Shown here: positions 19,211 through 34,536 of the stretch, piece after piece | How the letters are laid out: every line of letters begins with the position of its first letter | Position numbering within the stretch: position 1 is the stretch's first letter | Assembly: GCA_020720045.1 (NCBI GenBank) | Contig: DYPH01000047.1 | Location: 1-40,070 of the forward strand | DNA: 40,070 bases | Direction: 5' to 3' | From: Sorangium cellulosum | GTDB lineage: Bacteria > Myxococcota_A > Polyangia > Polyangiales > Polyangiaceae | Made by a program: the position numbers and the translations under genes | Notes under the pieces: generated by a model | The model's database searches: none | Told to the model about the DNA's origin: nothing | What the model saw: the letters and a program-made list of their open reading frames with translations, nothing else

Positions 19211-19996
19211 TCAGTGGTCGCGGGCGTGGGTGATGCAGAGATCGCGCCGCTCACCGCCGCACTTTTCGCAGGAACAAACACGAATATCGGCCCCTTGAGA
19301 CTGCATGGCTCCGCAAATCGCGCACTGACGCTCCCCGCGACCGACGAGCGGCTCCGCGGAGCGGAGTCCGACGCGACGACGGCGGGCCTCCATAAGGCGG
19401 CGCTCGCCGGCGAAGAAATCACGCCAGTGACCTACGAAGAAAATAAGGTAGTTCAGCGTCGCCGCGCCGACCTGGAGGCGCAGAAGGGCGGGTCCGGCGA
19501 CGATCTCATACAGCAGGTATAGAGCGCTGGCGTAGCCGAGGTATTTGACCTTGACCGGCAGCACCATGAAAAGTCGGATCTCGTAGTTGGGGCTCAGCGT
19601 CGCGAAGGCGAGAAAGAAGCTGGTCGCCAGCAGTTCGGGAGATGCAGGGCCGTGGGCAAGCATGGCCGCTGCCGCCATCGCGGAAAAACCGATGAACCAG
19701 TAGAGAGTGAAGCGGAAGTAGCCCCACTGTTCTTCCAGGTTCCTGTAGACCATGTACATCCAGTAAAGGGCGAACAAGCACCACAGAGGGTCGGCCTGCA
19801 TGACGAACTGGAACGTGAAGAGTCGCCAAAACTCCCCCCCACGGACGGCGGCCGGGTCGAGGACGAGGTAGGCAGGAAAGAGCGGCTTCGCGAAGCCGAG
19901 GAGCGTGACGAGGCCAGACAGGCCTACGAGAAGGAAGGAGAGATCGGGAATCGCGAACCACGAGAACCGGCGCTCGAGACGAGCGAGCAAGCTCAC
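19211..19996 (-). CDS. Rhomboid/derlin-like membrane protein with C-terminal zinc ribbon
   Basis: A 261-residue protein with about five to six transmembrane segments in residues 14-190. The GGEFWRLFTF motif and the WR-x-x-T pattern after the first segment are typical of the rhomboid/derlin superfamily. No GxSG serine motif or matching histidine is visible, so it is probably a proteolytically inactive pseudorhomboid. The soluble C terminus carries a dense cysteine/histidine cluster: C225, C228, C241, C243, C246, C254, H257 and H261, forming one or two zinc sites. The GTG start overlaps the stop of the FHA-like gene (GTGA), so it is the last gene of the Tad operon. The family is not a standard Tad component; its role is unknown, perhaps quality control of membrane partners. 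Confidence 0.72.
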   Translation of the reverse strand: MSLLARLERRFSWFAIPDLSFLLVGLSGLVTLLGFAKPLFPAYLVLDPAAVRGGEFWRLFTFQFVMQADPLWCLFALYWMYMVYRNLEEQWGYFRFTLYWFIGFSAMAAAAMLAHGPASPELLATSFFLAFATLSPNYEIRLFMVLPVKVKYLGYASALYLLYEIVAGPALLRLQVGAATLNYLIFFVGHWRDFFAGERRLMEARRRRVGLRSAEPLVGRGERQCAICGAMQSQGADIRVCSCEKCGGERRDLCITHARDH

Positions 19997-21246
19997 TTGA
20001 TGCCCTTCTCTTCAAGCACCTTCACCGCCGACGAGTAGGTCGGGTCCTTTGGCTTCTGCGCGGCGAGCTGCCGGTAGATCTTCAACGCTTCCGGCAATTT
20101 GCCATCCATCATCGCGTCAACCGCCTGTCGATCCAGCGTCTTGGCGGAGGTGGCCGGCGTTGCGTATTGCTCGCCGTCGTCCTTCTTCTTCTTGTCCTTC
20201 GGGTCGGCGCTCGGTGCCGGCGGCGGGGGCGGCGTCAAAATCTGCGCGCCCAAAATGACGCCGATGACGGGCGCTTTTGGCGCTCCCGAGGCGGCGGCGG
20301 ACGCTGAGGCCAGCGCCGACGCGGACGCTGCGAGCGCCGCCTTTTGCTCGGCGATCAGCTTGTTCTCCGCCTGCTCCCGCTGGAACCGATGTTGGCGAAG
20401 AAGCATGATGATGATGACGCCCGGAAGGGCCACAAAGAGGAATCTCCGGAGCGGAGATCCCTGATTCATGAAATCGTGAAAAGCTCCTTTGGACGGCGCC
20501 GGAGCCGCGGCCATGTTCGGCGGAGGGACTGTATTTGTTCCTGAAGCGCCTGCCTGCGCACCAACGGGCGGGGCGCCGTCCGGTGGGTACCCGGGCGGAA
20601 CAAACGCTTGGGGCCCCTGAGGGACATAGGCTCCTGATGCGCCCGGTCCGGGTTGAACAAACGGTGCACTGCCCGAAGGAATCGCCGGCAGCGCCCGAGT
20701 AGGCCCGGTCTCCGGCGACGCCGGCTGGCCAGGAAAGCGTGTCGCGGGACCGTTTTCGTCGTCGTCGCTCGGGGGCGGCACCCGGGCACCGGCCGCCGGG
20801 CGCACGGCCGCTGCGGAAGGCTGCGCGGCGGGCGCAAACCGGGTCGACTCGTCATCCGGGGGAGAAGCGAACGCGCCGGGAACAAACGGACGCGCCGCAA
20901 CCGGCTGAGGCACGCGCGGCTCGGTGGCGTCGTTCGCGCCAACCTCTTCAAATCGCAACTCAATCGACCCAAATACGACGGTAACCGGCGCGGGAAACGG
21001 CGTCCATGTCGTCGCGACCGGCCGCCCGTTGGCGAGGACCGGCTGCCCTCCGTCGTGGCTTTGGAGGTGAAGCTGCCCTCCGTCAAAAAACAGGTACCCG
21101 ACAACGTCGGCCACCCCCGGATCGGCGATGCGGAGCGCCCCCCGTTGGCCGACGCTCATCGGATCGAGCGGGACCCCTTCGCGAAGGTCGTAGGAGGACG
21201 GGGACGCATTGCCGCGCAAAACGCGCAGTGAAAACGCACGGCTCAT
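19993..21246 (-). CDS. FHA-like / TPR membrane protein of the Tad locus
   Basis: A 417-residue protein in three parts. Residues ~1-105 form a degenerate FHA-like beta sandwich (FSLRVLRGNASPSSYDLREG to VVFGSIELRFEEV), lacking the usual GR and SxxH phosphothreonine residues. Residues ~110-265 are a long Pro/Ala/Gly-rich linker. A transmembrane segment follows (FLFVALPGVIIIMLL), then an Ala/Ser repeat and a C-terminal TPR-like unit (DAMMDGKLPEALKIYRQLAAQKPKDPTY). It probably spans the inner membrane with the FHA-like part in the cytoplasm and the TPR part outside. It is encoded 50 bp after the second cpaF and overlaps the rhomboid-like gene by 4 bp. Function is unknown; a scaffold for the pilus machine is the likely role. 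Confidence 0.68.
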   Translation of the reverse strand: MSRAFSLRVLRGNASPSSYDLREGVPLDPMSVGQRGALRIADPGVADVVGYLFFDGGQLHLQSHDGGQPVLANGRPVATTWTPFPAPVTVVFGSIELRFEEVGANDATEPRVPQPVAARPFVPGAFASPPDDESTRFAPAAQPSAAAVRPAAGARVPPPSDDDENGPATRFPGQPASPETGPTRALPAIPSGSAPFVQPGPGASGAYVPQGPQAFVPPGYPPDGAPPVGAQAGASGTNTVPPPNMAAAPAPSKGAFHDFMNQGSPLRRFLFVALPGVIIIMLLRQHRFQREQAENKLIAEQKAALAASASALASASAAASGAPKAPVIGVILGAQILTPPPPPAPSADPKDKKKKDDGEQYATPATSAKTLDRQAVDAMMDGKLPEALKIYRQLAAQKPKDPTYSSAVKVLEEKGIK

Positions 21247-21296
21247 CGGGGTGGGAGTCTAGCCGAAGGGGTTCGGTGATCGTCAGTTTTCCGCGA

Positions 21297-22439
21297 TCAA
21301 CCGAGCGGCGAGTGGGGCACACGCCCGCCAGCCGCACGAACGGCGTCGTAGAGATTGGAGGGGAAGTCCATCCCGTGCTCGTGCAGCTGCTCGATGCAGC
21401 GAGGGAGGATCCCAGACGGCACAATCTCGCTTTCGATTTTGCCGTCGGGTGTGAAGCCGAGGTACCTGCGGACATAAATGTCCTGCATTTGATACGTCTG
21501 CGTCTGCATGTCGTAGCCGAGCACCTCGCTGATGTGCGTGATCTTTCGAGATCCGTCCTGGAGGCGCCCCACTTGGACAATACAATTCAGGGCGGAAGCG
21601 AGCTGAATACGAAGCGCATGTAGCGGCATGTCGATGTCGCTCATCATCGCCATCGTTTCAAAGCGAGAAATCGTGTCACGCGGATACGTGGCATGGAGCG
21701 TCCCCATGCAACCACCGTGACCGGAGGTCATCGCTTGGATAAGGTCGAGAGCCTCACCTCCTCGAATTTCCCCAAGAACAATCCGGTCGGGACGGAGACG
21801 GAGTGTCGCCTTAAAGAGCTGCCGAATCGTGACCTCTCCGCGACCGCGCGGGTCCGGAGGGCGCGCTTCAAGCTGACAAACGTGTTCCCGTTGGAGCTGA
21901 AGCTCGCGAGAGTCTTCGATAACCACCACGCGCTCGCCGTCCGGAATGTAAGACGACAGCGCGTTAAGCATCGAGGTCTTGCCGGAACCGGTTCCGCCCG
22001 CGATCAGAATGTTAAGCTTCGACGCAACAATGGCCTTTAGTGCGTGGGAGACCTCGTCGTTCATTGCGCCAAAGCGAATGAGTCGCTCGACGTTCAATGT
22101 CTCTTTGAAGAACCGTCGAATCGATACACACGGCCCCTCGGGCGCGGCAGGCGGAAGCACCGCCTCGATGCGGGAGCCGTCGGGGAGTCGCCCTTCGAGG
22201 ATCGGATGCTCCTCGTCGATCATCTTGCCGCAGTACTGGGCGGCATTTCGCAAGGCGGCGGTGAGGTGTTCCCGGGAATCGAATTTCGCCGGGACGAGCT
22301 CCAGAAGGCCCTTCTTCTCGACGAAAATCTGGCCTGGACCATTGATCATGATGTCGCTGACACCAGGATCTTCCAGGTACGGACGAATCGGCGCGAAGAA
22401 CTGGAGGAGCGTCTCCTCAAAAATCTCTTTGGGGATCAT
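21297..22439 (-). CDS. cpaF: CpaF/TadA-type pilus ATPase, short form without FHA domain
   Basis: A 380-residue secretion ATPase of the GspE/CpaF superfamily. It has the short N-terminal domain (EDPGVSDIMINGPGQIFVEK), Walker A GGTGSGKT (148-155), an Asp box (ERVVVIEDSREL), Walker B RPDRIVLGEIRGGEALD and a His box (GCMGTLHATYPRD). All catalytic motifs are intact, so it is probably active. It forms hexamers at the base of the machine and drives pilus extension or retraction. Its ATG overlaps the TadD-like gene by 4 bp. It is the second such ATPase in the locus; the first (25713-27461) carries an FHA domain. Having two in one Tad cluster is uncommon. Confidence 0.92.
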   Translation of the reverse strand: MIPKEIFEETLLQFFAPIRPYLEDPGVSDIMINGPGQIFVEKKGLLELVPAKFDSREHLTAALRNAAQYCGKMIDEEHPILEGRLPDGSRIEAVLPPAAPEGPCVSIRRFFKETLNVERLIRFGAMNDEVSHALKAIVASKLNILIAGGTGSGKTSMLNALSSYIPDGERVVVIEDSRELQLQREHVCQLEARPPDPRGRGEVTIRQLFKATLRLRPDRIVLGEIRGGEALDLIQAMTSGHGGCMGTLHATYPRDTISRFETMAMMSDIDMPLHALRIQLASALNCIVQVGRLQDGSRKITHISEVLGYDMQTQTYQMQDIYVRRYLGFTPDGKIESEIVPSGILPRCIEQLHEHGMDFPSNLYDAVRAAGGRVPHSPLG

Positions 22440-23035
22440 GGTTCTCCGATCCGTTGCGGCATTCCGTCATTGGGGCCACTAAGCGCGGCCCGAGCTTCGG
22501 GGGCGTGGGCGCCGCGCGGAGCGAGGTGGAGGTAGGTCAAAAACTCCGTATTTGCGCCGACGGAATCGTGATGCACGTCGCGAAGTAGCGTCGCCAATGC
22601 GTAGTGGGGATCGGCTTCGTTTGGCACATCGGCAACGACACGACGCAACGTCTTTTCCGCCAGCTCGCTTTCGCCGACCGCCGAATAGAGAGCGCCGAGA
22701 ACAAACCGAGCACCCGTGTCGTTGGGCGACTTCATCAAATACTCTTCCGCGTACTTGATCGCTAGCCGATAGCGGCCATCGGCCGTACACGCGTCGAGGA
22801 GCCACGGCATCACAACCCGCGGACTTGCCCCCTGCTCCATCGCCTGAACGAAGTATTGCTCGGCGCGCGTGTAGTCGCCGACGGACGCAAAGGTCTTGCC
22901 CCGACGGATGAGCTTTTCCGGCTGCTCCTCTTTCGCGATCGCTTCAAGCTTCGCCTCGGTGGCAGGCTTTTTGGGGGTACATGCTCCAAGGCTGAAGCAG
23001 CCAACCACCGCAAGAACGACGAGTGATCTCGTCAC
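22436..23035 (-). CDS. tadD: TadD-like TPR lipoprotein
   Basis: A 199-residue predicted lipoprotein. A hydrophobic signal ends in the lipobox SLGAC (Cys19). The mature part consists of TPR-type helical repeats (GDYTRAEQYFVQAMEQGA, RLAIKYAEEYLMKSPNDT, GESELAEKTLRRVVADVPN). TadD/PilF-type lipoproteins of this size help the secretin reach and assemble in the outer membrane, which fits the cpaC gene in the same operon. The start is GTG at 23035, overlapping the upstream gene (GTGA). Confidence 0.8.
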   Translation of the reverse strand: MTRSLVVLAVVGCFSLGACTPKKPATEAKLEAIAKEEQPEKLIRRGKTFASVGDYTRAEQYFVQAMEQGASPRVVMPWLLDACTADGRYRLAIKYAEEYLMKSPNDTGARFVLGALYSAVGESELAEKTLRRVVADVPNEADPHYALATLLRDVHHDSVGANTEFLTYLHLAPRGAHAPEARAALSGPNDGMPQRIGEP

Positions 23036-23904
23036 TTCTTCCCCGATTTCGTCACCTTCTTCGCGGCATCACGGTCTTGGATTTTCAGCCAATCCGCGTA
23101 GGCGGGATCAACCTTCTCCGTAAAATCGAGGAGGACACGAATGCTCCGACGCACGCTGACCCAATCCTCATTGGTCGTGTGCATCTTCAACCGGAGACGC
23201 TCTTTCCGGTAGCGACGATCGAGGTCGGTGCGGAGCGTTTGAGAGGCGTCGGTGGCGTATTTCGCGCCTTCGCCGTCGTTTCCGGCGGTCAGGCAGGCGG
23301 CGGCGAACTCGTAGCGCTCGACGGCGACGACCCCGTCGCTGACGCTGAATGTCGTCCTCTCGCGATAGGCATCTGCCTCCAGAAGTGCCTGTTCTCCTTG
23401 CGATTTTGCCTGCGGTCCCTGGGCGGGACAGACCACGGCACCAGCACCGCTCTTCCAGAGCTCCGGCGGCTTCGAAACGCCAGAGGAGCTTCCGGAGGTA
23501 TCGGGTTTGAGGACTGCGAAGGCGCCGAGTCCAACGATCGCGACGAGCCCCACCATTGCAAGCGGTGAGGACTTCTTCGGGTCCTTGGTCGCGCCGCCGG
23601 AGCCCGCCTGCTCTGCAAGAACGACGTGGATTTGTGTCGTTCCAATGCCGAGGATCGACTCCGGGGTAATCGGCGATTGAGAGAACGGAATATTATTGAG
23701 GGTCGGCTGCGGATCAAAGGCGAGCGCGGTTGCGTAGAGTCCGCCCGGAACGACGTCAATCCGAACATGCTCGACCTTACCTTGGTCGACAGGGAGTCGA
23801 ATCTCGCAGTGGGCGCCAATGCCGATGAGTGCCCGCTCCCCCTCGACGGTGACCTGATCGAGCTGGCCATTCGACTGACGAATCTGGAACTTAAGGGTCT
23901 TCAC
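23032..23904 (-). CDS. FHA-like single-pass membrane protein of the Tad locus
   Basis: A 290-residue protein starting with GTG at 23904. Residues ~1-95 form an FHA-like sandwich (LKFQIRQSNGQLDQVTVEG, then IGIGAHCEIRLPVDQGKVEHVRI), where the usual GR is replaced by GI and the SxxH serine is absent, so phosphothreonine binding is doubtful. A transmembrane helix follows (PLAMVGLVAIVGLGAFAVL, about residues 112-132), then a ~150-residue C-terminal region with alpha-helical character and two cysteines. It is encoded between tadC and the TadD-like gene. No exact family was recognised; it resembles in layout the FHA/TM protein at 19993-21246. Confidence 0.68.
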   Translation of the reverse strand: MKTLKFQIRQSNGQLDQVTVEGERALIGIGAHCEIRLPVDQGKVEHVRIDVVPGGLYATALAFDPQPTLNNIPFSQSPITPESILGIGTTQIHVVLAEQAGSGGATKDPKKSSPLAMVGLVAIVGLGAFAVLKPDTSGSSSGVSKPPELWKSGAGAVVCPAQGPQAKSQGEQALLEADAYRERTTFSVSDGVVAVERYEFAAACLTAGNDGEGAKYATDASQTLRTDLDRRYRKERLRLKMHTTNEDWVSVRRSIRVLLDFTEKVDPAYADWLKIQDRDAAKKVTKSGKK

Positions 23905-23926: not shown

Positions 23927-24847
23927 TCACAGGGCCCCCATGACGCCGAGGAGGTTCGGCCCGAGGATCAGAATCAGGACGACGACAAATACGAGCATGA
24001 GTGGCGCAACAAGCTTCACCGCTGCCTGCGCCGCTAGCTCTTCGGCGCGAACACTTCGCTTGTTTCGAGAGATGGATGCTTGAATGGTGAGGACTTCGGC
24101 GACCGGATTCCCCCGCTCTTCCGCTTGAACGAGCGAGTTCGTAAATTCGATCACCGCTTCGATCGGACAACGCCGCGCAAATTCGAGCATCGCTTCTTTG
24201 CGGGTACGACCGAGATTCAAGGTCTGAAGAATTAGCGTAAATTCTTCAACCATCGGATCTTCGGGATTGGAAGACTTCTCAACGACCTGTCGAATCGCGC
24301 CGGGGAAGTCGAGACCGGCGCTCATCGAAAGTGCCATAAGGTCAACGACGTAGGGGAGTCCTCGACTTACGAGACGCATCCTCTCAATGCCCGAGTCCGA
24401 GACGCGTTGATAGGGGATGGTCACGCCAAGTGTGACGCCTAGAATCCCGATAAGAGAGAGTTCAACTTTGGCGAAGACGTGAACCACGTACGCGAGCAGA
24501 AAGCCGGCAAAGCCGGAAAGGAGCGAAAGTGCGACGAATTCGTCGGCAGTCGCGCCCATCCAATCGCCGGCAAGCCCAAGCATCTTGTCAATCGACGCGC
24601 GCTGCTCCGTCGTCAGGATTGGGCTTAGACGGACGCCGAGCCAACGGACGAAAGGCTCAATGGTGGACCACTGTTCGTTGCGGGAGATTTCCTGCTGACG
24701 CTTGAGCCCGCGAAGGCCGAAGCGCCCGCCCTCGCGCGATTCTGCGCTGGCGAGGATGTAGGTAACGCCAAAGAGGCCGGCGCCGATCATCGCCGCACTG
24801 GCGTAGCGAAATCCGATAGTTGCTGAGGAGAGCTGTGCGGTTTCCAT
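23927..24847 (-). CDS. tadC: TadC-type inner-membrane platform protein
   Basis: A 306-residue polytopic protein of the type II secretion F (T2SSF) family. Hydrophobic segments lie near the N terminus (FRYASAAMIGAGLFGVTYIL), in the middle (LLSGFAGFLLAYVVHVF) and at the C terminus (KLVAPLMLVFVVVLILIL). The cytoplasmic T2SSF domain carries GLPYVVDLMALSMSAGLDFPGAIRQV and EERGNPVAEVLTIQA. With TadB it forms the inner-membrane platform that the CpaF hexamer turns. Its ATG overlaps the tadB stop by one base (TGATG). Confidence 0.9.
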   Translation of the reverse strand: METAQLSSATIGFRYASAAMIGAGLFGVTYILASAESREGGRFGLRGLKRQQEISRNEQWSTIEPFVRWLGVRLSPILTTEQRASIDKMLGLAGDWMGATADEFVALSLLSGFAGFLLAYVVHVFAKVELSLIGILGVTLGVTIPYQRVSDSGIERMRLVSRGLPYVVDLMALSMSAGLDFPGAIRQVVEKSSNPEDPMVEEFTLILQTLNLGRTRKEAMLEFARRCPIEAVIEFTNSLVQAEERGNPVAEVLTIQASISRNKRSVRAEELAAQAAVKLVAPLMLVFVVVLILILGPNLLGVMGAL

Positions 24848-25716
24848 CAGATATCAATCGTGAGGACTTTGCGGGCAATGACGATTGCGCTCACCCACGC
24901 CACCGCTGCGACGAAGAGGAGCGTATAGCCGACAAACGACGCCGTCATCGGGGCAAGGTAGCCGGGCTGCCAGACGCTCATGCCGACCGCAATGACGATT
25001 GGCAACGCACCAACGACCCATAGCTGCATCTTGCCTTCAGCGGTCTTGGTTCGGATGACGCCGTCCAAACGACGCATCTCTCGCAAGGAGTTCGCTGTGG
25101 TTTCGAGGACGCGGGGTAGATTACCGCCGACCTGACGGCCGATCAGAATCGCGCTCAATCCGGAGTCAACCGAACGACTTCCGATGCGCGATGCCATGTG
25201 GATCAAGGATTGATCGAGGGTCGAACCTACCTTCATTTCCTTGAGCGCGAGGTCGATCTCCTGACGAATCGGGTCGACGATAACCGTCACGACGGAGCTA
25301 AGTGCGGCGCCAATACTCGGCGTGCTCTTCATGCCGTTCGCGAGCGCAATCAAGAATCCGTCGAGCTGATCTTCAATTTTCTCGAGACGTTTGATGCGCT
25401 CGTTTTCAATGTGTGCAATCGGGCCGACGCAGATGACCAGCACAAGCGCCCACCAATACTCAAACCCTGCCGCGGCGGATCCGGCGAGGGCCAGAAAGAT
25501 CCCGACGGCCTGGGCGAGGACAATGCGCTCGCCTGGTACAAAGATAAATTGAAGACGGAGCTTCCGCTCGAGCATTGATACGTAACGCGCGTACCAGCGA
25601 AGTACCGGGCCGCCGGTATCGGTTGCCGCGACATACGTGCCGACAAAGAGGCCGATTGTAACGAGGGCAGTCCCCCCCCACCGTAGCGCCGGCAGGCCAA
25701 ATTCGTTCGGTGTCAC
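24847..25716 (-). CDS. tadB: TadB-type inner-membrane platform protein
   Basis: A 289-residue T2SSF-family protein. Transmembrane segments occur near the N terminus, in the middle (VGIFLALAGSAAAGFEYWWALVLVICVG) and as a final pair (VVGALPIVIAVGMSVW and FVGYTLLFVAAVAWVSAIV). The cytoplasmic domain contains QLDGFLIALANGMKSTPSI and ILIGRQVGGNLPRVLETTA, typical of TadB. It pairs with TadC as the platform of the pilus machine. The GTG start overlaps the stop of the FHA-cpaF gene (GTGA), and its own stop overlaps the tadC start. Confidence 0.92.
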   Translation of the reverse strand: MTPNEFGLPALRWGGTALVTIGLFVGTYVAATDTGGPVLRWYARYVSMLERKLRLQFIFVPGERIVLAQAVGIFLALAGSAAAGFEYWWALVLVICVGPIAHIENERIKRLEKIEDQLDGFLIALANGMKSTPSIGAALSSVVTVIVDPIRQEIDLALKEMKVGSTLDQSLIHMASRIGSRSVDSGLSAILIGRQVGGNLPRVLETTANSLREMRRLDGVIRTKTAEGKMQLWVVGALPIVIAVGMSVWQPGYLAPMTASFVGYTLLFVAAVAWVSAIVIARKVLTIDI

Positions 25717-27461
25717 AGGTATGCTTCCCCGCGTTTTACGAGGCCCATGATGATGAAATCATTGAGGTAGGAAGGTAGGTAACCCATCGCCCGAAACTCA
25801 CCGAGGACCTTGTTCTTCTCGCCAGTCCCAGTTCGAACGAACTTGAAGATCGGGCGAATCTCGACTTCGTGAGTATCGGGATCAATGCCGATTACCTCCG
25901 AAATATCGGTAACTTTTCGGGTACCGTCGGACATTCGGGACTGTTGAACAATCACATGAACGCTCGACGCGATCTGGTCACGGATAGCTCGAATCGGCAA
26001 ATCGAGACCGGACATGAGCACGAGCGTTTCCAAGCGGCCGATCGCCTCGCGGGGCGAGTTGGCGTGGGTGGTTGTGAGCGAACCATCGTGGCCCGTGTTC
26101 ATCGCCTGGAGCATGTCGAGCGCTTCGCCGCCACGGCACTCGCCAACGACGATTCGGTCGGGACGCATTCGGAGAGCGTTCTTTACGAGGTCGCGAATCG
26201 TGTACTCGCCGCGCCCTTCAAGATTGGCGGGGCGTGTTTCAAGCGAAACAACGTGGGGCTGCTTCAATTGAAGTTCTGCGGCGTCCTCAATGGTAACGAC
26301 GCGCTCATCTTCGGGAATCGCGCCGGAGAGAACGTTGAGGAGGGTCGTCTTCCCGGACCCCGTACCACCTGAAATAACGATATTTTTCTTCGCTACAACG
26401 GAGCGCGTCAAGAAGCGCCCCATCTGCTCGGTGATGGAACCGAAGCGGATGAAGTCGTCCATCTTCAGCGGCGTTTTGGCGAACTTTCGAATCGTGATGC
26501 ACGATCCGCGAAGCGCGAGCGGCTTGATCACGGCATTGACGCGGGACCCGTCTTTGAGTCGCGCGTCGACCAACGGCGAAGACTCGTCAATACGGCGGCC
26601 AAGCGGTGTCACGATGCGCTCGATAACGGCGCGCACGCGCTCGTCGTCGGTGAAGCGCGCGCTCGAGAGCGTCAGCTTTCCCGCGTGCTCCACATAGATG
26701 GTGTCGGGGTCGACGACCATGATTTCGCTGCACTTTGGGTCGGCGAGGAACCGCTCGAGGGGACCAAGGCCGAGCGCTTCGTCGGCCAACTCGCCGATGA
26801 GGACATCGCGCTCGATTTCGCGCGGAATGCGGGCGTCCATCGTCGCCACGATCCGGCGTAGCGCCGTCAGCACCTTGGGACGCATCGACGGGTCATCGAG
26901 CTTCTTGGCGTCGATGGTCGCGAGGTCGAGGTGTTCGAGGAGCTGCTTATGGATTTCGCGGCGCATCGCGACTTCCGCTTTGCGCGCTTCCCGCTCAGCA
27001 TCGTTCGTGAATCCGGCGGGGGCGCCCCCCGCAGCCGGTCGAGCGGCAGGTGCTGCCGGTGGGGCTGGCGCGGCGACCGGTGGAGCCGGAGGAGGAGGTG
27101 CTGCGTAGGCGGGGGGCGGAGCGACCGCCGGCATGGACGGCGCGGCGGGCGCCGCAACAGCCGTCTGTGCAGGATACACATAAAGTGTAAACTCGCCGAC
27201 GACGACCGGAGTCCCGTAAGGCACCTCGATCGCACGCTTTTGGAGGAGTAAATCGCCCGCTATCGTTCCATTTCGGGACACGTCTTCGACGCGCAAGCCT
27301 TGGCGTCCGACGTCAAAAACGACGTGTGCCCGCGAGACCAGGTCGCTGTCGAGGCGGAGCGTCGACGTCGGTGCGCGGCCAACCGTGATTGGCGTCCCCA
27401 CAGGGAACGTCTCGGTGCGCTGGCGACCGTCTTCGGACTGGATGACCACGGATAGAAACAT
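25713..27461 (-). CDS. cpaF: FHA-domain-fused CpaF/TadA pilus ATPase
   Basis: A 582-residue fusion. Residues 1-~100 are a canonical FHA domain with GR (28-29), SRAH (43-46) and NGT (64-66), the residues that bind phosphothreonine. A Pro/Ala-rich linker covers about 103-155. The rest is a full CpaF ATPase: N-terminal domain ([39 protein letters not shown]), Walker A GGTGSGKT (365-372), [12 protein letters not shown], Walker [18 protein letters not shown] and the His box [10 protein letters not shown]. It powers pilus assembly at the TadB/TadC platform. The FHA domain suggests control or recruitment by a Ser/Thr protein kinase, which is inference; no such kinase lies in the window. The ATG at 27461 starts directly at the FHA fold. 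Confidence 0.94.
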
Positions 27462-27510: not shown

Positions 27511-28815
27511 TCAGTTCGCCGAAGGGGGCGTGACCGGGAACGTGTCGAGATTCTGCATCGATCCCGAGAAGTTCTTGTAGGTCGTTAGCGCATTGCGGAC
27601 GACTTCGAGGGAAGACTTCGGCACGGTCTCTACAACGCTCGGAATAATGAAGATGGCCCCTTCGGATTCCGATTCTTCCTTCCTGTGACTCCCGAAGAAG
27701 ACACCGAGGACCGGGATTTCACTAAGAAGCGGGAGACCTTGGATATCGTTCCGCCGGCTCATGGTCTTGAAGCCGGAGAGGACGAGCGCCTGACCGAGCT
27801 TGAGATTGACGGTCGTTTCGAGGCGCGTCGCTGTGCGGCCGGGGAGTTCCCCGCCATTGTTTGGGGCGAGCTCAGAAACGTCCGAGGCGATTTTGACCTC
27901 GATGTCTTTCGTGCTCGAGTCGTAACGCGGCAGCATTTTGACGTGAGAGCCGTACTCGATTTTCGCCACGGAAGCAGAGACGGCCGTCGAGACTTTAAAG
28001 TTGAGTTCTCCGCCATCGAAGAACGTCGCTTCAACGCCATTTCCGGTGATGAGCGTCGACTGCTTGAGCACCTTTGCCCAGCCGTTTCGGGCACCAATGT
28101 CGAGCCGCGGGAGCGGCTGACCGACGATGGAGGCCTGTGCGGAGGTCATCGTCCCGGTGATGAAATCGAAGTCGAGCTGGGATTGAATGATCTGTGTCGC
28201 TCCACTCGACGTGCCACCGATCGACGTCGGATACCCGATCCCGACCGCCCAGCTCGAAGAGCGTTCGTACCGCACGAAAAAGAGGTCGAGGCGGACGAGA
28301 ACCTTGCGATCACCGGGCATCGGGCCAGCCACGACAACAAGGCTTTCGGCCTGATCCTTGTACTGCTTGGCGATCGCGTCGATGCGCTTGGCCTCGCTGT
28401 CGGTGCTCACGCTGCCGTCGATAAACAACTTGCCACCGACGCGCCGGAGGCGGACGCCAGGCGAGTCGCCGAGGAGTTGCTGGAGCTCGCGCTCTACCTG
28501 CGCGATATTGCGCGTAGAAACGTTGATGTCGTAGGTGGTCTGAGCGCCGTCGTTCTTGATGAGAAGGAGCGATCCGGATCCGGGACGGCGACCCGTGATG
28601 ATGAACTGCGTGCCGTCGGGGGTCGGCTTCACGTCGAAGCAATCGCCGGTCGGCGCGTAGTTCTTCACATTTGCTGCGGCTACGAGTTTCGTTTCGCCCA
28701 CGGAGAGCGTCACGTCTGTGCTGTGGGCGGCCGGCTGCTGGGCATGGGCATGCGGCGCGGCAAACAAGCCGGTAGTGGCGAGGGCAGCGCAGAGAACAAG
28801 CGGGCGGAGCTTCAT
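27511..28815 (-). CDS. cpaC: CpaC/RcpA-type secretin
   Basis: A 434-residue outer-membrane secretin. The ATG at 28815 is preceded by AAGGAC and begins a signal peptide (MKLRPLVLCAALATTGLF, cleavage after AHA). The N-terminal part has the CpaC-type domain (DVTLSVGETKLVAAANVKNY) and a BON-like unit (GDSPGVRLRRVGGKLFIDGS). The C-terminal secretin domain includes GELPGRTATRLETTVNLKLG, ALVLSGF and LPLLSEIPVLGVFFGS, the hallmark secretin motif. It forms the outer-membrane channel for the pilus. It lies between cpaB and the FHA-cpaF gene. Confidence 0.93.
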   Translation of the reverse strand: MKLRPLVLCAALATTGLFAAPHAHAQQPAAHSTDVTLSVGETKLVAAANVKNYAPTGDCFDVKPTPDGTQFIITGRRPGSGSLLLIKNDGAQTTYDINVSTRNIAQVERELQQLLGDSPGVRLRRVGGKLFIDGSVSTDSEAKRIDAIAKQYKDQAESLVVVAGPMPGDRKVLVRLDLFFVRYERSSSWAVGIGYPTSIGGTSSGATQIIQSQLDFDFITGTMTSAQASIVGQPLPRLDIGARNGWAKVLKQSTLITGNGVEATFFDGGELNFKVSTAVSASVAKIEYGSHVKMLPRYDSSTKDIEVKIASDVSELAPNNGGELPGRTATRLETTVNLKLGQALVLSGFKTMSRRNDIQGLPLLSEIPVLGVFFGSHRKEESESEGAIFIIPSVVETVPKSSLEVVRNALTTYKNFSGSMQNLDTFPVTPPSAN

Positions 28816-28866: not shown

Positions 28867-29643
28867 TCAGCGCGGCGCGGTAATCAGCTGGGGCACGGTC
28901 GAGGTCGGGCGTGCAACACTGCGCTGCCCGGTAATCCCCTCGAACTGGTTCTGCCCCATTTCCGCGCTCTTGATGCGGGTTTGGTCGCGCACCGAACGGA
29001 CTGCAACCGTGAGACGTCCCGACTCGCTCGCGAGCGACATGATGTTGACCTCCTGCGGGCCGAGGCTCAACGTGAGGATGTCTTCGCGGACTTTCTTCGT
29101 CTCGTCCCGGTCCCGCGACGTGTCGTTCCCGGTAGCCAGCACAAGCACCTTCTCGAGCAAAAGCTTTGAGAATCGCTCACCTTTATCGTCAGCCCCCTTG
29201 ATGAAGGTGCCGAAGACGTCGACGTAGTCGCCGGGCCGGATGAGGGTCACCGCGGAATCGGAGCGGTCGACGTGGATCGTAACGGCTCGGTAGCCCGGCT
29301 CGACACGGTCGCTGAGATTGACCTGCTCATCCTGAGCGTTGACCATGTCTGTCCACATCACGGTTTGCTGAGCGAGGACGGTATTTGCCGCAGGAAGTCC
29401 AAGGATTTTCGAACGTTCCGACTCTTTGATGGCGCGGTCCTCGACCCAAGCGATCGGGACTTTGCGGGTCCCGATCATGTCGTCGGTGAGGATGACGCCT
29501 CGGTCGATTTTCTTCGCCGCGACCAGCACCGTCACGCGCTCGCCACCGGAGGCATCGAGCTCGAAACGACGTTGATAAAGCACGAGAAGAATCACTCCGA
29601 GAGCGGCGACGATGGCGGCGATTGCAAGGGCCCGGCGATTCAT
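28867..29643 (-). CDS. cpaB: CpaB/RcpC-type pilus assembly protein
   Basis: A 258-residue protein with an N-terminal membrane segment (LAIAAIVAALGVILLVLYQ), a SAF domain (VTVLVAAKKIDRGVILTDDM) and the RcpC/CpaB domain (GYRAVTIHVDRSDSAVTLIRPGDYVDVFGTF). CpaB sits in the periplasm and works with the secretin. It is the first gene after an internal terminator and so needs a promoter of its own in 29644-29726; none was identified with confidence. Confidence 0.92.
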   Translation of the reverse strand: MNRRALAIAAIVAALGVILLVLYQRRFELDASGGERVTVLVAAKKIDRGVILTDDMIGTRKVPIAWVEDRAIKESERSKILGLPAANTVLAQQTVMWTDMVNAQDEQVNLSDRVEPGYRAVTIHVDRSDSAVTLIRPGDYVDVFGTFIKGADDKGERFSKLLLEKVLVLATGNDTSRDRDETKKVREDILTLSLGPQEVNIMSLASESGRLTVAVRSVRDQTRIKSAEMGQNQFEGITGQRSVARPTSTVPQLITAPR

Positions 29644-29785: not shown

Positions 29786-30751
29786 TCAGGGGGCCGAAGG
29801 ACGAGCGCGGGCGGCGCGCTGGTCTGCGCCAAGTTCCGCGATCGTGACGACGGTACGCTTGGTCTCGCTGTCGATGCCGGTGCTGAGAATGAGCTCAACG
29901 CCGTCCTTTTCGAAACCGCGTCCGCGATTCCCGTCACGGTCGTATTTCAAACCAACCCAGCCGTCGTCACGAAGCTTGTTGTCATAGCTCGCAGCGACGT
30001 CCTCAGCGGAACGGGCGGTCGAATAGATCCAAACGCCGTACGGCGTGCCATCAAACTGCGCGGAGAGGTAGCGCTGGGAATCGGCGGGGCGCGGAACGAG
30101 CGTCGGGTCGGAGCCGGGTGCATCTTTCCCGTCTTCAATGGCGAAGGAGGAGAGCTTGAAATGATCCTCCGTCCAGACGGTGAGGGCGCGCGTCTTGCCG
30201 TCCTTCGTGGCGGTCATGTACGAATAGCGAAGCTTCCCAAGATCGCCCAGATCGGCGGATTGTTGGAAGGTCTTCATGGTGTCGACGAGGTTTGTGGCGC
30301 TCCCGTTCGGCTTCGAAATGCATGCGACGACGCCGCGCGTCCCCTCCTCCCGTCGGAGCACACCATTCGGAAGAATCCCGAGAGCGGCGACCTCGGTCGG
30401 CGCGGACTTGTAAGCCTCTTTGAACACGGCAGTGTCCTGAGCACTGCAGGCGCGCTCAACGAGATCGAGACTCTGTTTGAGGGGCAGATTCCCGACCCCC
30501 GAGGCGGCGTAGATCGGCTCCCCATTAAGGGTGATTTTTTGCGGACGGTCAAGGAGTTCGACGAAGGGAAGAAGGTCCTGCCCAAAGGCGACCGCCTGGT
30601 TCCCAACTTCTGCTTTTGCCTTCGACCACGAAAACATCCCCAGCCCGAGCGCAATCGCGCCGGCATACGCGGACACGCGCATCCGACCGGCCCTGCGCGG
30701 ATCGGTGTTCTTGCTTCGCAGCGAAGTGAGGAAAGATACCAGCTGGATCAT
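29786..30751 (-). CDS. Membrane-anchored protein of unknown function in the Tad locus
   Basis: A 321-residue protein with an N-terminal hydrophobic segment after a basic stretch (RMRVSAYAGAIALGLGMFSW), so it is probably anchored in or exported across the inner membrane. The remainder is soluble, with two cysteines (ERACSAQ and GVVACIS) and a C-terminal module FDGTPYGVWIYSTARSAEDV and GRGFEKDGVELILST. No family was recognised. It is encoded 21 bp after the TadE-like gene and just before the internal terminator, so it is expressed with the pilins. A periplasmic partner of the pseudopilins is possible. Confidence 0.7.
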   Translation of the reverse strand: MIQLVSFLTSLRSKNTDPRRAGRMRVSAYAGAIALGLGMFSWSKAKAEVGNQAVAFGQDLLPFVELLDRPQKITLNGEPIYAASGVGNLPLKQSLDLVERACSAQDTAVFKEAYKSAPTEVAALGILPNGVLRREEGTRGVVACISKPNGSATNLVDTMKTFQQSADLGDLGKLRYSYMTATKDGKTRALTVWTEDHFKLSSFAIEDGKDAPGSDPTLVPRPADSQRYLSAQFDGTPYGVWIYSTARSAEDVAASYDNKLRDDGWVGLKYDRDGNRGRGFEKDGVELILSTGIDSETKRTVVTIAELGADQRAARARPSAP

Positions 30752-30772: not shown

Positions 30773-31249
30773 CTAAAAGAACGACTTGGCGAAACTGAAG
30801 ATCGACGAGATGCCGCCGCCATTGTGCTTCTCGTTGCACATCATGTGCGACGAATTACGGACGGGGCGACTGTAACCGAACTTATTGACTTCTTTGTCGG
30901 TCGTCTCGTGGGCAATGCGCGTTTTGGTGTTGAGGGACTTCCCCATTTCACCGGGGGGGGCGACATCTTGACCGCCCTTCCCCTTTGCGCCGCCCACACC
31001 ACCGACATCCATGTCGTCCCCCTCGCCGGCAGCTGCATTGCCGGAGGGGGCAGTCTCGTCGCAGGAATGAGCGGCGTAGTAGGCGACGTCGTAGCGGGCC
31101 GTCTGCATCTGGTTCAACTTCTCATAATAAGAAGACATCATCCAGATACTGAGACCGAAGAAGAGAGAGATAACCGGGAGGATCATGGCGGCTTCCACCA
31201 TCGCCGCCCCTCGCTCGCCACGCTTATTGTGTCGTCGCATGGATCTCAT
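30773..31249 (-). CDS. tadE: TadE-like pseudopilin
   Basis: A 158-residue protein with a basic N terminus and the prepilin-like motif GAAMVEAAM directly before the hydrophobic helix (MILPVISLFFGLSIWMM), as in TadE proteins. The cleavage glycine is at the expected -1 position. The C-terminal periplasmic part is Gly-rich (GEGDDMDVGGVGGAKGKGG) and has two cysteines (SCDET and MCNEKH). The ATG at 31249 lies 3 bp after the stop of the tadG-like gene; a second ATG at 31240 is an alternative. It probably primes or caps the pilus. Confidence 0.82.
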   Translation of the reverse strand: MRSMRRHNKRGERGAAMVEAAMILPVISLFFGLSIWMMSSYYEKLNQMQTARYDVAYYAAHSCDETAPSGNAAAGEGDDMDVGGVGGAKGKGGQDVAPPGEMGKSLNTKTRIAHETTDKEVNKFGYSRPVRNSSHMMCNEKHNGGGISSIFSFAKSFF

Positions 31250-31251: not shown

Positions 31252-32766
31252 TCAGTGATAGTTTTCGGTGGCCGGGAGCGCATTCGCGCCACCCCAGAGG
31301 TCTTCCGCTTGCCCCTCTACGTAGTCGACACCCTTGTCGATTCCGCTGCCGACGATCTTCTCGAGAATGTCGGCGTTTAGGCCGACCTTTTCTCCGACCT
31401 TCGCCGCTGCCCCGATCGCGTTTTCAAGCGCCTTCGAGTTCGAGATCTTCTCGCCGATGCTATCGAAAACACCGCCGTTGAGGACCTTCGAGAGGAAGAA
31501 GTCTCCGAGGACGCCGAGAATGTTCATGGTGCGGACACGCACGAGCCGCGTTCGCCAGTTCATCGCGTAGAGCGCTAGGTCGACGTCGTCCTTGCCATCG
31601 CCATTGCAATCGTCGCCGTCCCAGGCATCTTTGCAGTCGAAGAACATCTCCGCCTGCGCCGTGTAGAAGTGCATTCCCGCTTGGGAGTTCTTCGTAAAGT
31701 CGTAGCCAGCCATCCCGACCTGACGAACGCTCTTGTCATCAAAGTTGGTGACGACGAAGCTGTAGGTCTGCATCCAGTCGGTGCCGTTCTCGGCCGGCTT
31801 GTACATCTTCTTCGGCCCGGTCTTCTTCTCCCACCAATCGCTGTCGAAGGTGCTGTTGTTGAAGCCGAGAAGACCGAAGGCCCAGCCGCCGGAACCGTAG
31901 GTGCCGTTGTTGCTGCAATAGCGACCAACGCCGGCCCATTTCAAGAGCCTTTCGATGTAGCCGCCGCCGCCGAACTTCGAGCCGATCATTTGCCCGATCT
32001 CCACGAAGAGCGCGGAGCAGAGCGAAGCATTTTCCGCCTTCGAAACCGGAAGTCCGAGCTTGCCCGAGGCTTCAGCAAACGTGACCCCGGAACTCGCCGC
32101 TTTCGCACCGTCGAGCTTCTCAGCAGCAGCGCCCGCAGCACCACCACCACCGCCACCAGCATCGCCGTTCCCGGTGCCGGGAATCATCGACGAACTCACG
32201 CTTAGGGCCAAGAACCCTTTTTCGTCGTAGACGTGTTTGTTTCCGACGTTGACGCCGGCTACTTGGCCGAGATGAGGCGCGACATAGGCAGTCACTGTTT
32301 GGACGGTTCCGAGTGCCTCGACGCCGACCTTAAAGATCTTCGAGTAGCCGACCCAAATCTGGTTGACTGCTGACGCTGCTTGCTGGGCAGCCGGGCAGCC
32401 CACCGCGGTAATCGGAATGAGGCAGAGGGCGACGGCAGCGATGTATGCGACGTCGCGGACGATGCCCAACGCGATGTAAATCGCGGTCATTACGAGCATC
32501 AAGAGATTGAGTGCTGCGATGAGGTTCATCCCCTTCGCGTGCACGACCGTCACGGAGAATGCCGCGGCGTCGGCAGCTTCTTGCGCTTTGTCGCGGAACA
32601 CCAGCATGTCGCCGATGCCGATCAGGAACCAAAGGGCTCCAATCAGGAACATGGCGAGAAAAACTCCGAGGACCATGATCGCACCGCGATCATCGGTCTT
32701 CAATTTCCGGAGCGCCGTGGCCGTATCGATGGGCTCAAACGGTGAGAGGATTGCTGCAGTGCTCAC
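31252..32766 (-). CDS. tadG: TadG-like pseudopilin with dockerin-type calcium loop
   Basis: A 504-residue protein beginning with GTG at 32766, immediately after the stop of the preceding tadE-like gene. It has the TadG N-terminal pattern (DDRGAIMVLGVFLAMFLIGALWFLIGIGDM, continuing AQEAADAAAFSV), then an unusual second hydrophobic block (LIAALNLLMLVMTAIYIALGIV, then AYIAAVALCLIPITAV). The exposed region contains a Gly/Ala stretch (GDAGGGGGGAAGAAAEK) and, at residues 383-396, an Asp/Asn-rich loop (DGDDCNGDGKDDVD) that fits a dockerin/thrombospondin-type calcium site. TadG proteins are thought to be minor pilins or tip/secreted components. It contains several cysteines but no von Willebrand A MIDAS pattern that I could see. 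Confidence 0.78.
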   Translation of the reverse strand: MSTAAILSPFEPIDTATALRKLKTDDRGAIMVLGVFLAMFLIGALWFLIGIGDMLVFRDKAQEAADAAAFSVTVVHAKGMNLIAALNLLMLVMTAIYIALGIVRDVAYIAAVALCLIPITAVGCPAAQQAASAVNQIWVGYSKIFKVGVEALGTVQTVTAYVAPHLGQVAGVNVGNKHVYDEKGFLALSVSSSMIPGTGNGDAGGGGGGAAGAAAEKLDGAKAASSGVTFAEASGKLGLPVSKAENASLCSALFVEIGQMIGSKFGGGGYIERLLKWAGVGRYCSNNGTYGSGGWAFGLLGFNNSTFDSDWWEKKTGPKKMYKPAENGTDWMQTYSFVVTNFDDKSVRQVGMAGYDFTKNSQAGMHFYTAQAEMFFDCKDAWDGDDCNGDGKDDVDLALYAMNWRTRLVRVRTMNILGVLGDFFLSKVLNGGVFDSIGEKISNSKALENAIGAAAKVGEKVGLNADILEKIVGSGIDKGVDYVEGQAEDLWGGANALPATENYH

Positions 32767-33273
32767 TCAGTCCTCCGTCTTGTAGCGGGCACCTTGGTGC
32801 GGGTAGTTCGCGGTCTCTTCCCAGTCAATCGAGGCTCCACCGCCACAAACCATGTACTTTGCCATCGGAACGTCGCACTTGAAGGTCGCCTTCACTTTGA
32901 CGGTTACGAGGCCGAACGGGCCATCGTATTCGTCGCGATTGGACGAATCGTCAATCGTGACTTCGACATTGCGGATGGCTGTATTTTGCCAGGGCCCGAG
33001 CGCCTTCCCAACGGCATTTTCGACGGCTTTTTGGCCATCTTCCTGATCGTCTTTGGCATTCTTTGGCTTGGGCAAGTTCTGATTGTCGTGCGTAACCGCG
33101 GCGGCGCGAACGCCAATGGTCGCCGCATGCTTAAGCATGAGACGACCAGTGTACACACGGGAGAGCTGCCAACAGACCGTCCAGATCATGAGCACTGGAA
33201 CGATGGCGATCATGAACTCGACCATCGCTGCGCCGCGCCGTCTTCGCGCTCGATAGGGGGGTGTTCGTTTCAT
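32767..33273 (-). CDS. tadE: TadE-like pseudopilin
   Basis: A 168-residue protein from the ATG at 33273, which overlaps the peptidase stop (ATGA) and has GGAG upstream; longer in-frame starts lie inside the peptidase gene. The motif RRRRGAAMVEFMIAIVPVLMI is a class III prepilin/TadE cleavage region with glycine at -1 and glutamate at +5. The mature domain has a long charged stretch (KPKNAKDDQEDGQKAVENA) and two cysteines (FKCDVP and VCGGG). It is one of two TadE-like proteins in the locus. Confidence 0.84.
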   Translation of the reverse strand: MKRTPPYRARRRRGAAMVEFMIAIVPVLMIWTVCWQLSRVYTGRLMLKHAATIGVRAAAVTHDNQNLPKPKNAKDDQEDGQKAVENAVGKALGPWQNTAIRNVEVTIDDSSNRDEYDGPFGLVTVKVKATFKCDVPMAKYMVCGGGASIDWEETANYPHQGARYKTED

Positions 33274-33812
33274 TCCGATCTCCATTCGAGAAACGCGGTA
33301 ACTGCAGTGCCTACGAACATGCACGGGCCGAGGCGAAACCAGGTGAGAGCTTCCGGCTCAATCGTCGCTTGCTTGTCCTTCGGACGTGCGGCGTTGAGGG
33401 CAATGGATAGACTCGTCTTCAACGTTTGAAGGAGCTTGCCATCGTAAATGAGCTTCACCGGTGCGAACACGGCTGCGGCGACGAAGGTGATGAAGGTCGC
33501 CTCGAGCCCGATTTGGGGCATCAAGAGGGCGCCAAGTGCCAGAAAAAACTTAAGATCTCCGCCGCCGATCGCATTGTAACGATAGAGGAGGAAGGGGACG
33601 AGACCGCAGACGAGCGCGCCAAGGAGGGAGACTCCGGCGCTCTGTAACGCGGCCTTCTCCGCCATCCCCTGCGACACCGCGTAGACTACGTGGGCGATGG
33701 GGGCGCCGAGAAGGAGGCCGAGCGAAAATCTTCCAGGGATTTCCCCTTTTTTCCAGTCGTAGCCGGCTGCGATGGCCGTCGCCAGAACCGCGACGACGAG
33801 GAAGATCTTCAT
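33270..33812 (-). CDS. cpaA: Prepilin peptidase (TadV/CpaA type)
   Basis: A 180-residue polytopic aspartyl protease that removes the leader of Flp, TadE and similar prepilins at the inner membrane. The catalytic aspartates are D19 (GYDWKKGEIP) and D86 in the GGGD motif (AIGGGDLKFF). The usual IPN after the first aspartate reads IPG. There is no N-terminal methylase domain, as expected for TadV. It follows the flp genes by 100 bp and overlaps the tadE-like gene. Confidence 0.92.
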   Translation of the reverse strand: MKIFLVVAVLATAIAAGYDWKKGEIPGRFSLGLLLGAPIAHVVYAVSQGMAEKAALQSAGVSLLGALVCGLVPFLLYRYNAIGGGDLKFFLALGALLMPQIGLEATFITFVAAAVFAPVKLIYDGKLLQTLKTSLSIALNAARPKDKQATIEPEALTWFRLGPCMFVGTAVTAFLEWRSE

Positions 33813-33912
33813 GCTTCAAATCATACTTCGGGACGAAAAAGCGACGCCCAAATTCTTGAGCGCCGCTCGTTGGATTCGTAAGCCCGGCAACAGTCGCCAG
33901 GCCGACGCGCGT

Positions 33913-34089
33913 TCAGCCGAAGGCGCTCTTCGCTTCCGTTGCCGTCGACTTGACGGTGGTGCCGAGTTCCTTGAAGGCCATGTACGCGATGAGGAGGATG
34001 AGTGCGAGCATGATGCCGTACTCGACCATCGTGGCAGCGCGCTGGGACTTCTTTTCGATGAGGCGGGCGCGGAGGATCTGAAGATTCAT
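33913..34089 (-). CDS. flp: Flp-type major pilin (copy 1)
   Basis: A 58-residue prepilin. The ATG at 34089 is chosen because AGGAG lies 8 nt before it; an ATG at 34095 is too close to that site. The leader is basic (LRARLIEKKSQR) and the core AATMVEYGIMLALILLIAYM is the Flp pattern with the E-Y pair at residues 23-24. The -1 cleavage residue is alanine (A18) instead of the usual glycine. The short tail ends KSAFG. It is almost identical in its core to the copy at 34153-34314, with 63 bp between them. Confidence 0.9.
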   Translation of the reverse strand: MNLQILRARLIEKKSQRAATMVEYGIMLALILLIAYMAFKELGTTVKSTATEAKSAFG

Positions 34090-34152
34090 GGTCATGGCTC
34101 CTGGATGTAACGCTGGGGTGAAAAAGACAGAGAACTTGGTTTGATCCCTCTA

Positions 34153-34314
34153 CTACTGGAAGGCAGCGGAGGTGTCTACGGCGGCTTGCCCGGTCTTGTT
34201 ACCGAGCTCTTGGAACGCCATGTAGGCAATCAAGAGGACGAGGGCGAGCATGATCCCGTATTCGACCATCGTTGCAGCTCGTTGCGGGATTCGGCGGAGG
34301 GTCTTCGGGGTCAT
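34153..34314 (-). CDS. flp: Flp-type major pilin (copy 2)
   Basis: A 53-residue prepilin from the ATG at 34314, preceded by GAGG. The leader is short and basic (MTPKTLRRIPQR). The hydrophobic core AATMVEYGIMLALVLLIAYM differs from copy 1 by a single conservative change, and the mature tail (FQELGNKTGQAAVDTSAAFQ) diverges. Alanine (A13) again replaces the -1 glycine, with E18 at +5. The frame extends upstream to 34356 but has no support there. The two copies probably arose by tandem duplication. Confidence 0.9.
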   Translation of the reverse strand: MTPKTLRRIPQRAATMVEYGIMLALVLLIAYMAFQELGNKTGQAAVDTSAAFQ

Positions 34315-34356
34315 GGCGTACCTCTTGATGAACAAGGCGGACGTTGGTCGTCTCAA

Positions 34357-34536
34357 TCAAGGTTTCGAGCTGAGAATGGCTACCTGGGCGGCCCGGTAGT
34401 CTTTGAACATCTGCTTCCCGACTAAGACGAACGCGGAGATCATCGGAAGCGCGACGAGGAGAAGAAGAAGCGCGTATTCCACCATGACTGCGCCGCGAAG
34501 GCCGGTCTTTTTTGCGGTGGAGTGTTTGAGCTTCAT
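34357..34536 (-). CDS. Flp/TadE-like small prepilin (divergent third copy)
   Basis: A 59-residue prepilin from the ATG at 34536, with GAGGAC upstream. It has a basic leader (KLKHSTAKKTGLR), the canonical cleavage motif G15-AVMV-E20-Y21, and a hydrophobic core with proline (LLLLLVALPMISAFVLVG) unlike the two Flp copies. The tail is KQMFKDYRAAQVAILSSKP. It is the first gene of the pilin group. It could be a minor pilin or the true major subunit. Confidence 0.85.
   Translation of the reverse strand: MKLKHSTAKKTGLRGAVMVEYALLLLLVALPMISAFVLVGKQMFKDYRAAQVAILSSKP

Follow-up and report, generated by a model that had tools for sequence, protein, structure and literature searches.

A single contig of a Sorangium cellulosum genome (GCA_020720045.1, contig DYPH01000047.1) carries Tad pilus genes in a complete, operon-like minus-strand run that extends from 34536 to 19211. 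The whole contig, 40070 bases of a 6.34 Mb genome assembled in 357 contigs, is the stretch analyzed here and is called the window. Within this one cluster lie genes for two CpaF-type ATPases. The first, CpaF1 (25713-27461; PF00437, 6.7e-63), has 582 aa, and in it an FHA domain (PF00498, 1.5e-7) and a proline-rich linker precede a three-helix N-terminal domain (NTD1), a second N-terminal domain (NTD2), and the ATPase domain. The second, CpaF2 (21297-22439; PF00437, 5.2e-54), has 380 aa and consists of NTD2 and the ATPase domain, without the three-helix NTD1 and without FHA. An initial annotation of this DNA had placed two complete CpaF ATPases at these coordinates, correctly so: each retains an intact Walker A, Asp box, Walker B, and His box. 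It had not described CpaF1 as an FHA–CpaF fusion, the missing N-terminal three-helix domain of CpaF2, or the FHA-like membrane proteins encoded on both sides of CpaF2 (23032-23904 and 19993-21246). The two motors, with their intact catalytic residues, share the operon with one platform pair, TadB/CpaG (24847-25716; PF00482, 2.9e-11) and TadC/CpaH (23927-24847; PF00482, 2.3e-15).

The Tad gene set assigned in the initial annotation largely stands. Three Flp-type genes, recognized by sequence and open reading frame analysis, head the run: a Flp-like pilin or pseudopilin of 59 aa (34357-34536) and Flp pilins of 53 aa (34153-34314) and 60 aa (33913-34095). They are followed by a CpaA/TadV prepilin peptidase (33270-33812; PF01478, 6.6e-13), TadE (32767-33273; PF07811, 1.5e-6; the start codon is our choice), CpaB/RcpC (28867-29643; PF16976, 3.1e-24), and the CpaC/RcpA secretin (27511-28815; PF00263, 2.7e-26). 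Beyond the platform genes is a TPR protein with an apparent lipobox, read from the sequence, that is a TadD or pilotin candidate (22436-23035; TPR_14, 1.8e-10). The TadG assignment is the weak one: the TadG-like protein (31252-32766) has homologs in relatives, and its match to the TadE-like model TIGR03816 (E 3.4e-4) falls below the cut-off. Next to it are a TadE-like minor pilin candidate (30773-31249), proposed from its sequence and a PF07811 match below the cut-off (E 0.077), and a conserved protein preceding cpaB (29786-30751) that has homologs in several relatives and no Pfam match at E 0.1.

The two FHA-like proteins flank the TPR and CpaF2 genes. FHA1 (23032-23904) has an FHA-like domain, a presumed membrane segment, and a helical C-terminal domain; its PF16697 match (E 0.014) is below the cut-off. 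The AlphaFold model (pLDDT 82.7) predicts an FHA domain joined by a low-confidence stretch to a helical domain, and its best PDB matches are FHA domains. FHA2 (19993-21246) combines a weak FHA/YscD-like N-terminus (PF16697, E 0.055, below the cut-off) with a proline-rich linker and a presumed membrane segment, and its homologs adjoin CpaF2 in several relatives. From the prepilin peptidase downstream, intergenic gaps do not exceed 142 bases, and several genes overlap: CpaF1/TadB by 4 bases, TadB/TadC by 1, FHA1/TPR by 4, and TPR/CpaF2 by 4, so that the CpaF2 start codon falls within the stop of the TPR gene. The locus thus displays the Tad family traits of a CpaF-type ATPase, TadB and TadC, secretin, CpaB, prepilin peptidase, and Flp pilins. 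It departs from the family trait of a single bifunctional motor, since two intact motors lie in one gene run. Because bifunction of a single motor has been demonstrated only in Caulobacter, the two motors mark a variant and do not exclude the locus from the Tad family.

Both ATPases belong to the CpaF family. In a PDB sequence search, solved CpaF structures (9e24, 8rkd) are the best structures for each, at 2e-87 or better. CpaF1 aligns with Caulobacter CpaF from the three-helix region on, through NTD1, NTD2, and the ATPase domain, and CpaF2 begins just ahead of NTD2. The AlphaFold model of CpaF2 (mean pLDDT 79.9, 11 sequences) is nearest to CpaF 9e24, with a TM-score of 0.81 by query length, and is predicted to fold as the NTD2 and ATPase domain of the Caulobacter protein. 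A longer CpaF2 frame containing the missing helices is ruled out, as merely 9 in-frame codons lie ahead of the ATG. Against the PilT model TIGR01420, CpaF2 scores 50.6 bits, far from the cut-off of 319.1, which places it outside the PilT family.

The reduction of CpaF2 is general. We aligned 28 CpaF1, 33 CpaF2, and 11 canonical CpaF rows and numbered the columns by Caulobacter CpaF; among the CpaF2 rows, L073 was called too short to be judged at the N-terminus. The NTD1 columns (residues 80-139) are filled to a median of 1.0 in CpaF1 and in canonical CpaF and of 0.18 in CpaF2 (highest, 0.30). Thus, the three-helix bundle that CpaF1 has is absent from all 32 judgeable CpaF2 rows. Of the two hinge glycines, the one at position 147 occurs in 0 of 33 CpaF2 rows and the one at 149 in 2 of 33, L073 included in both counts. 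At Central Loop position 331, all 39 CpaF1 and canonical rows have E or D, whereas 16/33 CpaF2 rows have R or K (15/19 in Myxococcota); position 333 is R in 30/33. Loop 8 D208 is retained in 16/33 CpaF2 rows, 14/19 among Myxococcota. Walker B E357 and His-box H382 are retained in all 33. On the CpaF1 side, 33 of 50 long rows, some of them the same gene fetched twice, carry a strict FHA signature. Among the other 17, three have starts called too late; the remainder differ at FHA residues or, in the case of Rhizobium, show no clear FHA.

Published mutants give these differences meaning. Mutant data of Hohl et al. (2024, PMC11300603) show that Caulobacter loses piliation upon G147A/G149A, upon D208K, and when four Central Loop residues are changed, E331K among them, with expression lowered for some; deletion of residues 1-146 has the same effect, in a protein that is not readily detected. 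From a tree of 292 orthologs, Yen et al. (2025, PMC12019362) describe a minimum CpaF architecture of three-helix bundle, NTD, and ATPase domain, and they report that deletion of the bundle leaves no detectable protein. As those authors outline their classes, CpaF1 has the architecture of the FHA-fused class III, whereas CpaF2, without the bundle, lies below the published minimum and fits none of classes I-III. Judged by its sequence, CpaF2 has lost or altered parts that Caulobacter CpaF needs for pilus extension.

The two motors are old. Our maximum-likelihood tree has 77 rows (28 CpaF1-type, 33 CpaF2-type, 11 canonical, and 5 of an orphan FHA–CpaF type described below), with the motor rows hand-picked for spread. 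The 33 CpaF2 rows, drawn from Myxococcota, Planctomycetota, Hydrogenedentes, Sumerlaeota, and Rhizobium, form a single clade (support 100/100). The 28 CpaF1 rows form one side of a branch (89/80), canonical CpaF is placed on the CpaF2 side of the tree (92/84), and the orphan type is the outgroup (100/100). Both motor clades span Myxococcota, Planctomycetota, and plasmid-borne Rhizobium loci. Rhizobium CpaF1 groups with Planctomycetota (100/100), and Rhizobium CpaF2 groups with Planctomycetota and Hydrogenedentes at weaker support (89/93). Because both Rhizobium motors have affinities with Planctomycetota, the tree suggests that the set was transferred as a unit. Against the same-genus locus L039, CpaF2 shows 59 synonymous changes to 1 non-synonymous codon change, and CpaF1 shows 99 to 3 in a gapped alignment.

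Genomes tend to hold both motors or neither. Counted as both, CpaF1 only, CpaF2 only, and neither, the tallies are 25/0/2/12 of 39 relatives, 24/1/2/32 of 59 genomes of the class, and 17/1/2/6 of 26 genomes of the order to which genome G103 belongs. These counts were made by hand, with classes taken from identity, match start, and frame length; G142 and G145 were credited with CpaF1 from fragments, genomes whose CpaF is of another type count under "neither," at least 5 genomes are common to the first two sets, and the counts are uncorrected for kinship, so that Fisher values computed from them overstate independence. Pairwise distances between CpaF1 proteins also track those between CpaF2 proteins across 39 loci, after removal of 4 near-duplicates (r 0.918; 0 of 2000 permutations as high). 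Thus, on the tree and in the tallies, the motors appear as separate, ancient clades that are mostly co-inherited in the Myxococcota sampled.

Gene order is likewise shared. The order CpaB–CpaC–CpaF1–TadB–TadC–TPR–CpaF2 is kept in 10 of 10 loci, from 9 genomes, of relatives in the order, loci selected for the proximity of their two ATPases. FHA1 lies between TadC and TPR in 9 of the 10, and each locus has one TadB and one TadC. A wider survey took the best 80 of 146 CpaF2 loci from a named genome collection and is no census; linkage in L071, L092, and L104 was counted by tblastn, since the gene caller missed one ATPase in each, and L108, retrieved by the CpaF2 search although its sole match is of CpaF1 type, was left out. 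The survey has 32 Myxococcota loci in which 6 kb or more upstream of CpaF2 is available, and in 25 of them the fetched stretch includes CpaF1; in one of these, L065, CpaF1 is 9.4 kb away on the opposite strand. Rhizobium loci link the two in 4 of 4.

Individual genomes show variants of this layout. Genome G020 has two two-motor Tad clusters (L029, L030), separated by about 100 kb, and a CpaF1 and a CpaF2 are present in each. Plasmids of Rhizobium leguminosarum and R. etli carry two-motor Tad clusters (L166, 6928-19101; L178, 5036-17113), and the Rhizobium loci examined encode a long CpaF1 without a clear FHA signature, yet have an FHA protein inside the cluster. In G103, CpaF2 is about 14.5 kb from the Tad cluster on the opposite strand. 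In G098, taken to be Bradymonas sediminis FA350, the distance is 2.8 Mb, or 2.2 Mb the other way if the chromosome is circular. Neither TadB nor TadC adjoins these unlinked CpaF2 genes (L151, L154).

CpaE has been called ubiquitous in Tad systems, in the wording of a 2026 paper (PMC13170226). The initial annotation had found no MinD-like TadZ/CpaE in the window, and its reading holds: no deviant Walker A of the MinD type occurs among the called proteins of the window or of 96 related loci, many of them partial, and the same expression did find CpaE2 in Sinorhizobium pSymA. The window takes in the whole contig, and the view of this genome around the locus stops at the contig ends. Within the window and the 96 loci there is no sign of an overlooked TadZ gene; a stricter expression matched only ParA-like proteins, in five loci without Tad genes. 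A genome-wide TadZ_N search likewise gave no match, an uninformative result given that 14 control genomes were silent too. The annotated stretches of R. leguminosarum and R. etli list neither TadZ nor a secretin, in a gene table that is incomplete by its makers' own account. The FHA-type membrane proteins beside CpaF2 may stand in for TadZ/CpaE in docking the machine.

The FHA domain of CpaF1 raises the prospect of control by phosphorylation. In two Planctomycetota Tad clusters, a Ser/Thr kinase with TPR repeats lies between the prepilin peptidase and CpaB (L115, 12577-15219, Pkinase 4e-49; L085, 8781-11321, 3.5e-51). The gene adjoining the unlinked CpaF2 of G103 and G098 is kinase-like (L151, 5504-7474, 9.4e-10; L154, 10957-12876, 4.9e-5, below the cut-off), and after it, in both loci, comes a gene related to one at 34703-35470 of the window. 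No kinase is seen in the window's own Tad gene run. Kinases in or near the loci of relatives, together with the FHA domain of CpaF1, suggest a phosphorylation switch.

We propose, with about even confidence, that this is one Tad machine whose single TadB/TadC platform is served by two distinct motors of the CpaF family, CpaF1 driving extension and CpaF2 most likely retraction. The notion is that CpaF1 would be the extension motor, gated through its FHA domain by phospho-threonine signaling. CpaF2, now without the three-helix domain and hinge and with a different platform-facing loop, lacks parts that Caulobacter needs for extension and would be a second motor acting on the same platform. Type IVa pili employ a longer PilB and a shorter PilT, members of one superfamily, on one platform, and by analogy the short CpaF2 would most likely retract the pilus as PilT does against the longer PilB. 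The likeness to PilB and PilT is one of function, a longer and a shorter ATPase in a pair; CpaF2 is of CpaF, not PilT, descent. The FHA-type membrane proteins near CpaF2 may dock this machine as TadZ/CpaE does elsewhere. Divided roles for the two ATPases, which the initial annotation had suggested, are strengthened by the ancient clades, by the occurrence of the motors mostly together or not at all, and by the changes in CpaF2 at parts needed for extension; the assignment of directions we infer from PilB and PilT, and it is a guess by analogy.

Several points count against this proposal. Sequence gives no direction for either motor. A short CpaF2 could also retract poorly, because Caulobacter CpaF without residues 1-78 shows lowered retraction (Hohl et al. 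2024, PMC11300603, as described for that mutant). The lost hinge and changed Central Loop could also keep CpaF2 from docking on TadB/TadC, although retention of D208 in 16 of 33 CpaF2 rows, and in 14 of 19 from Myxococcota, argues otherwise. Among the best 80 of 146 loci, 7 of the 32 Myxococcota loci that reach 6 kb or farther upstream are without a linked CpaF1, and CpaF1 is within about 10 kb in just 8 of 18 Planctomycetota or Sumerlaeota loci with at least about 9.7 kb downstream. The pairing itself has exceptions, in the tallies and in G093, which has a CpaF1-type match without a CpaF2-type one and comes from the phylum and class samples kept outside those tallies. Finally, vertical descent alone would also yield the correlation of distances between the motors.

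A different role on the same machine would make CpaF2 an accessory of CpaF1. PilU is a helper motor of type IVa pili, and CpaF2 might be such a helper or a subunit of a mixed hexamer that tunes speed or force. The co-occurrence and co-variation of the two motors, and the existence of helper motors elsewhere, are what such a role would predict, but an accessory fits poorly with catalytic residues kept in 33 of 33 rows, with a clade of its own, and with genomes in which CpaF2 is unlinked. We regard this role as unlikely, if still a serious contender.

CpaF2 might instead serve a platform whose genes lie elsewhere and drive another process there, such as substrate secretion or a short pseudopilus of its own. 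The changed Central Loop and missing hinge would suit such a role, as would the position of CpaF2 in B. sediminis, far from the Tad cluster and beside a weakly kinase-like gene; 10 of the 18 Planctomycetota or Sumerlaeota loci, again within the best 80 of 146, have no CpaF1 within reach. Set against this, no second TadB/TadC adjoins CpaF2, CpaF1 is near in 25 of 32 Myxococcota loci of that survey, and in the genome tallies the two motors mostly go together. The probability we attach to a separate process is low, albeit appreciable.

The initial annotation had also suggested a predation-type Tad machine, and the corresponding possibility here is a Kil-type contact-killing machine in which CpaF2 serves firing or resetting. 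In the account of Seef et al. (2021, PMC8460266), Myxococcus Kil has the FHA-fused KilF as its single ATPase, lacks TadG and TadD, and is encoded in two clusters, and B. sediminis is named as a predator with Kil-like genes. Compared with that description of the M. xanthus system, the window shares an ATPase with an N-terminal FHA, further FHA proteins, a secretin, a prepilin peptidase, and a platform pair; it differs in having two ATPases, a weak TadG-like gene and a TPR lipoprotein-like gene, and one gene run. A short secretin without N0 is a further Kil trait, and the N-terminal region of the window's secretin matches PF13629 only at E 0.0048, below the cut-off. The Tad cluster of G098, which may be the one meant by Seef et al., has the similar order CpaB–CpaC–FHA.CpaF1–TadB–TadC–FHA–TPR–pilin. 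CpaF2 is present in that genome too, but more than 2 Mb away, beside the weakly kinase-like gene. The FHA fusion of CpaF1 and this resemblance to a predator's cluster thus speak for a Kil-type machine. Yet plasmids of R. leguminosarum and R. etli, and Planctomycetota as well, have the same layout of two motors and FHA proteins without a TadZ seen, so the layout is no mark of predators; and Kil as described, with its single ATPase, two clusters, and no TadG or TadD, is built differently. The suggestion of a predation machine is not supported as such, a contact-killing machine of Kil type is improbable, and, on a comparison by description, the locus is not filed as Kil.

A recent duplication that left one copy redundant or decaying, for which the common descent evident in the roughly 46 percent identity of the motors might be cited, is rejected as next to impossible by separate deep clades across Myxococcota and other phyla, intact motifs, and the synonymous to non-synonymous ratio of CpaF2. 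The refuting condition named in the initial annotation, recent duplicates without conserved pairing, thus fails on the clades and the co-occurrence tallies.

Returning to two motors on one platform, we tentatively suggest, below even confidence, a broader form of that proposal: a two-motor arrangement of Tad's own, independent of PilB/PilT, in which an FHA-fused CpaF1 would extend under a threonine-phosphorylation switch, a short CpaF2 would retract, and FHA proteins would replace TadZ. Such a form would be ancient in Myxococcota and Planctomycetota and would have passed as a unit to Rhizobium plasmids. The machine resembles the Caulobacter crescentus Cpa pilus in CpaA, CpaB, CpaC, CpaF, TadB/TadC, and the Flp pilins, and it differs in its second motor, in the FHA domain of CpaF1, in its FHA-type membrane proteins, and in that no CpaE/TadZ was found.

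Recent structural papers (PMC12019362, PMC11300603) discuss Tad as a system with a single motor, and how the same CpaF can power extension as well as retraction of the pilus is a standing question in the field. A natural system with two CpaF proteins, one of them without parts needed for extension, would allow the two directions to be separated genetically. If our proposal is correct, part of the Tad world is not single-motor. CpaF2 also enlarges the family by a class that falls short of the published minimum architecture, and it raises the question of whether the single-ATPase account of Kil-like systems holds in B. sediminis. In the open-licence PMC literature on Tad motors and Kil, a search that excluded subscription papers and preprints found no report of a second CpaF class or a two-motor Tad system in the texts it reached; published CpaF trees may hold CpaF2 proteins unlabeled. 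Possible test beds are strains with the Rhizobium plasmid locus, Minicystis rosea, and B. sediminis.

Further observations concern genes at the margins of this system. The run in the window ends with a Der1/rhomboid-like membrane protein (19211-19996; PF04511, 1.1e-4, below the cut-off), whose gene overlaps FHA2 by 4 bases and is present in few relatives. Elsewhere in the same genome lies a third, orphan FHA–CpaF ATPase (G000:C183; L129, 11342-13507), a 721-aa protein about 26 percent identical to CpaF2, and no Tad gene was recognized around it. Many genomes of the phylum encode relatives of this orphan, which in some of them lie next to a second FHA protein, and the orphan type could bear on KilF. 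Finally, the 14.6 kb plasmid pCL1 of Chlorobium limicola carries a CpaF together with a platform-type gene (L169, 491-1783).

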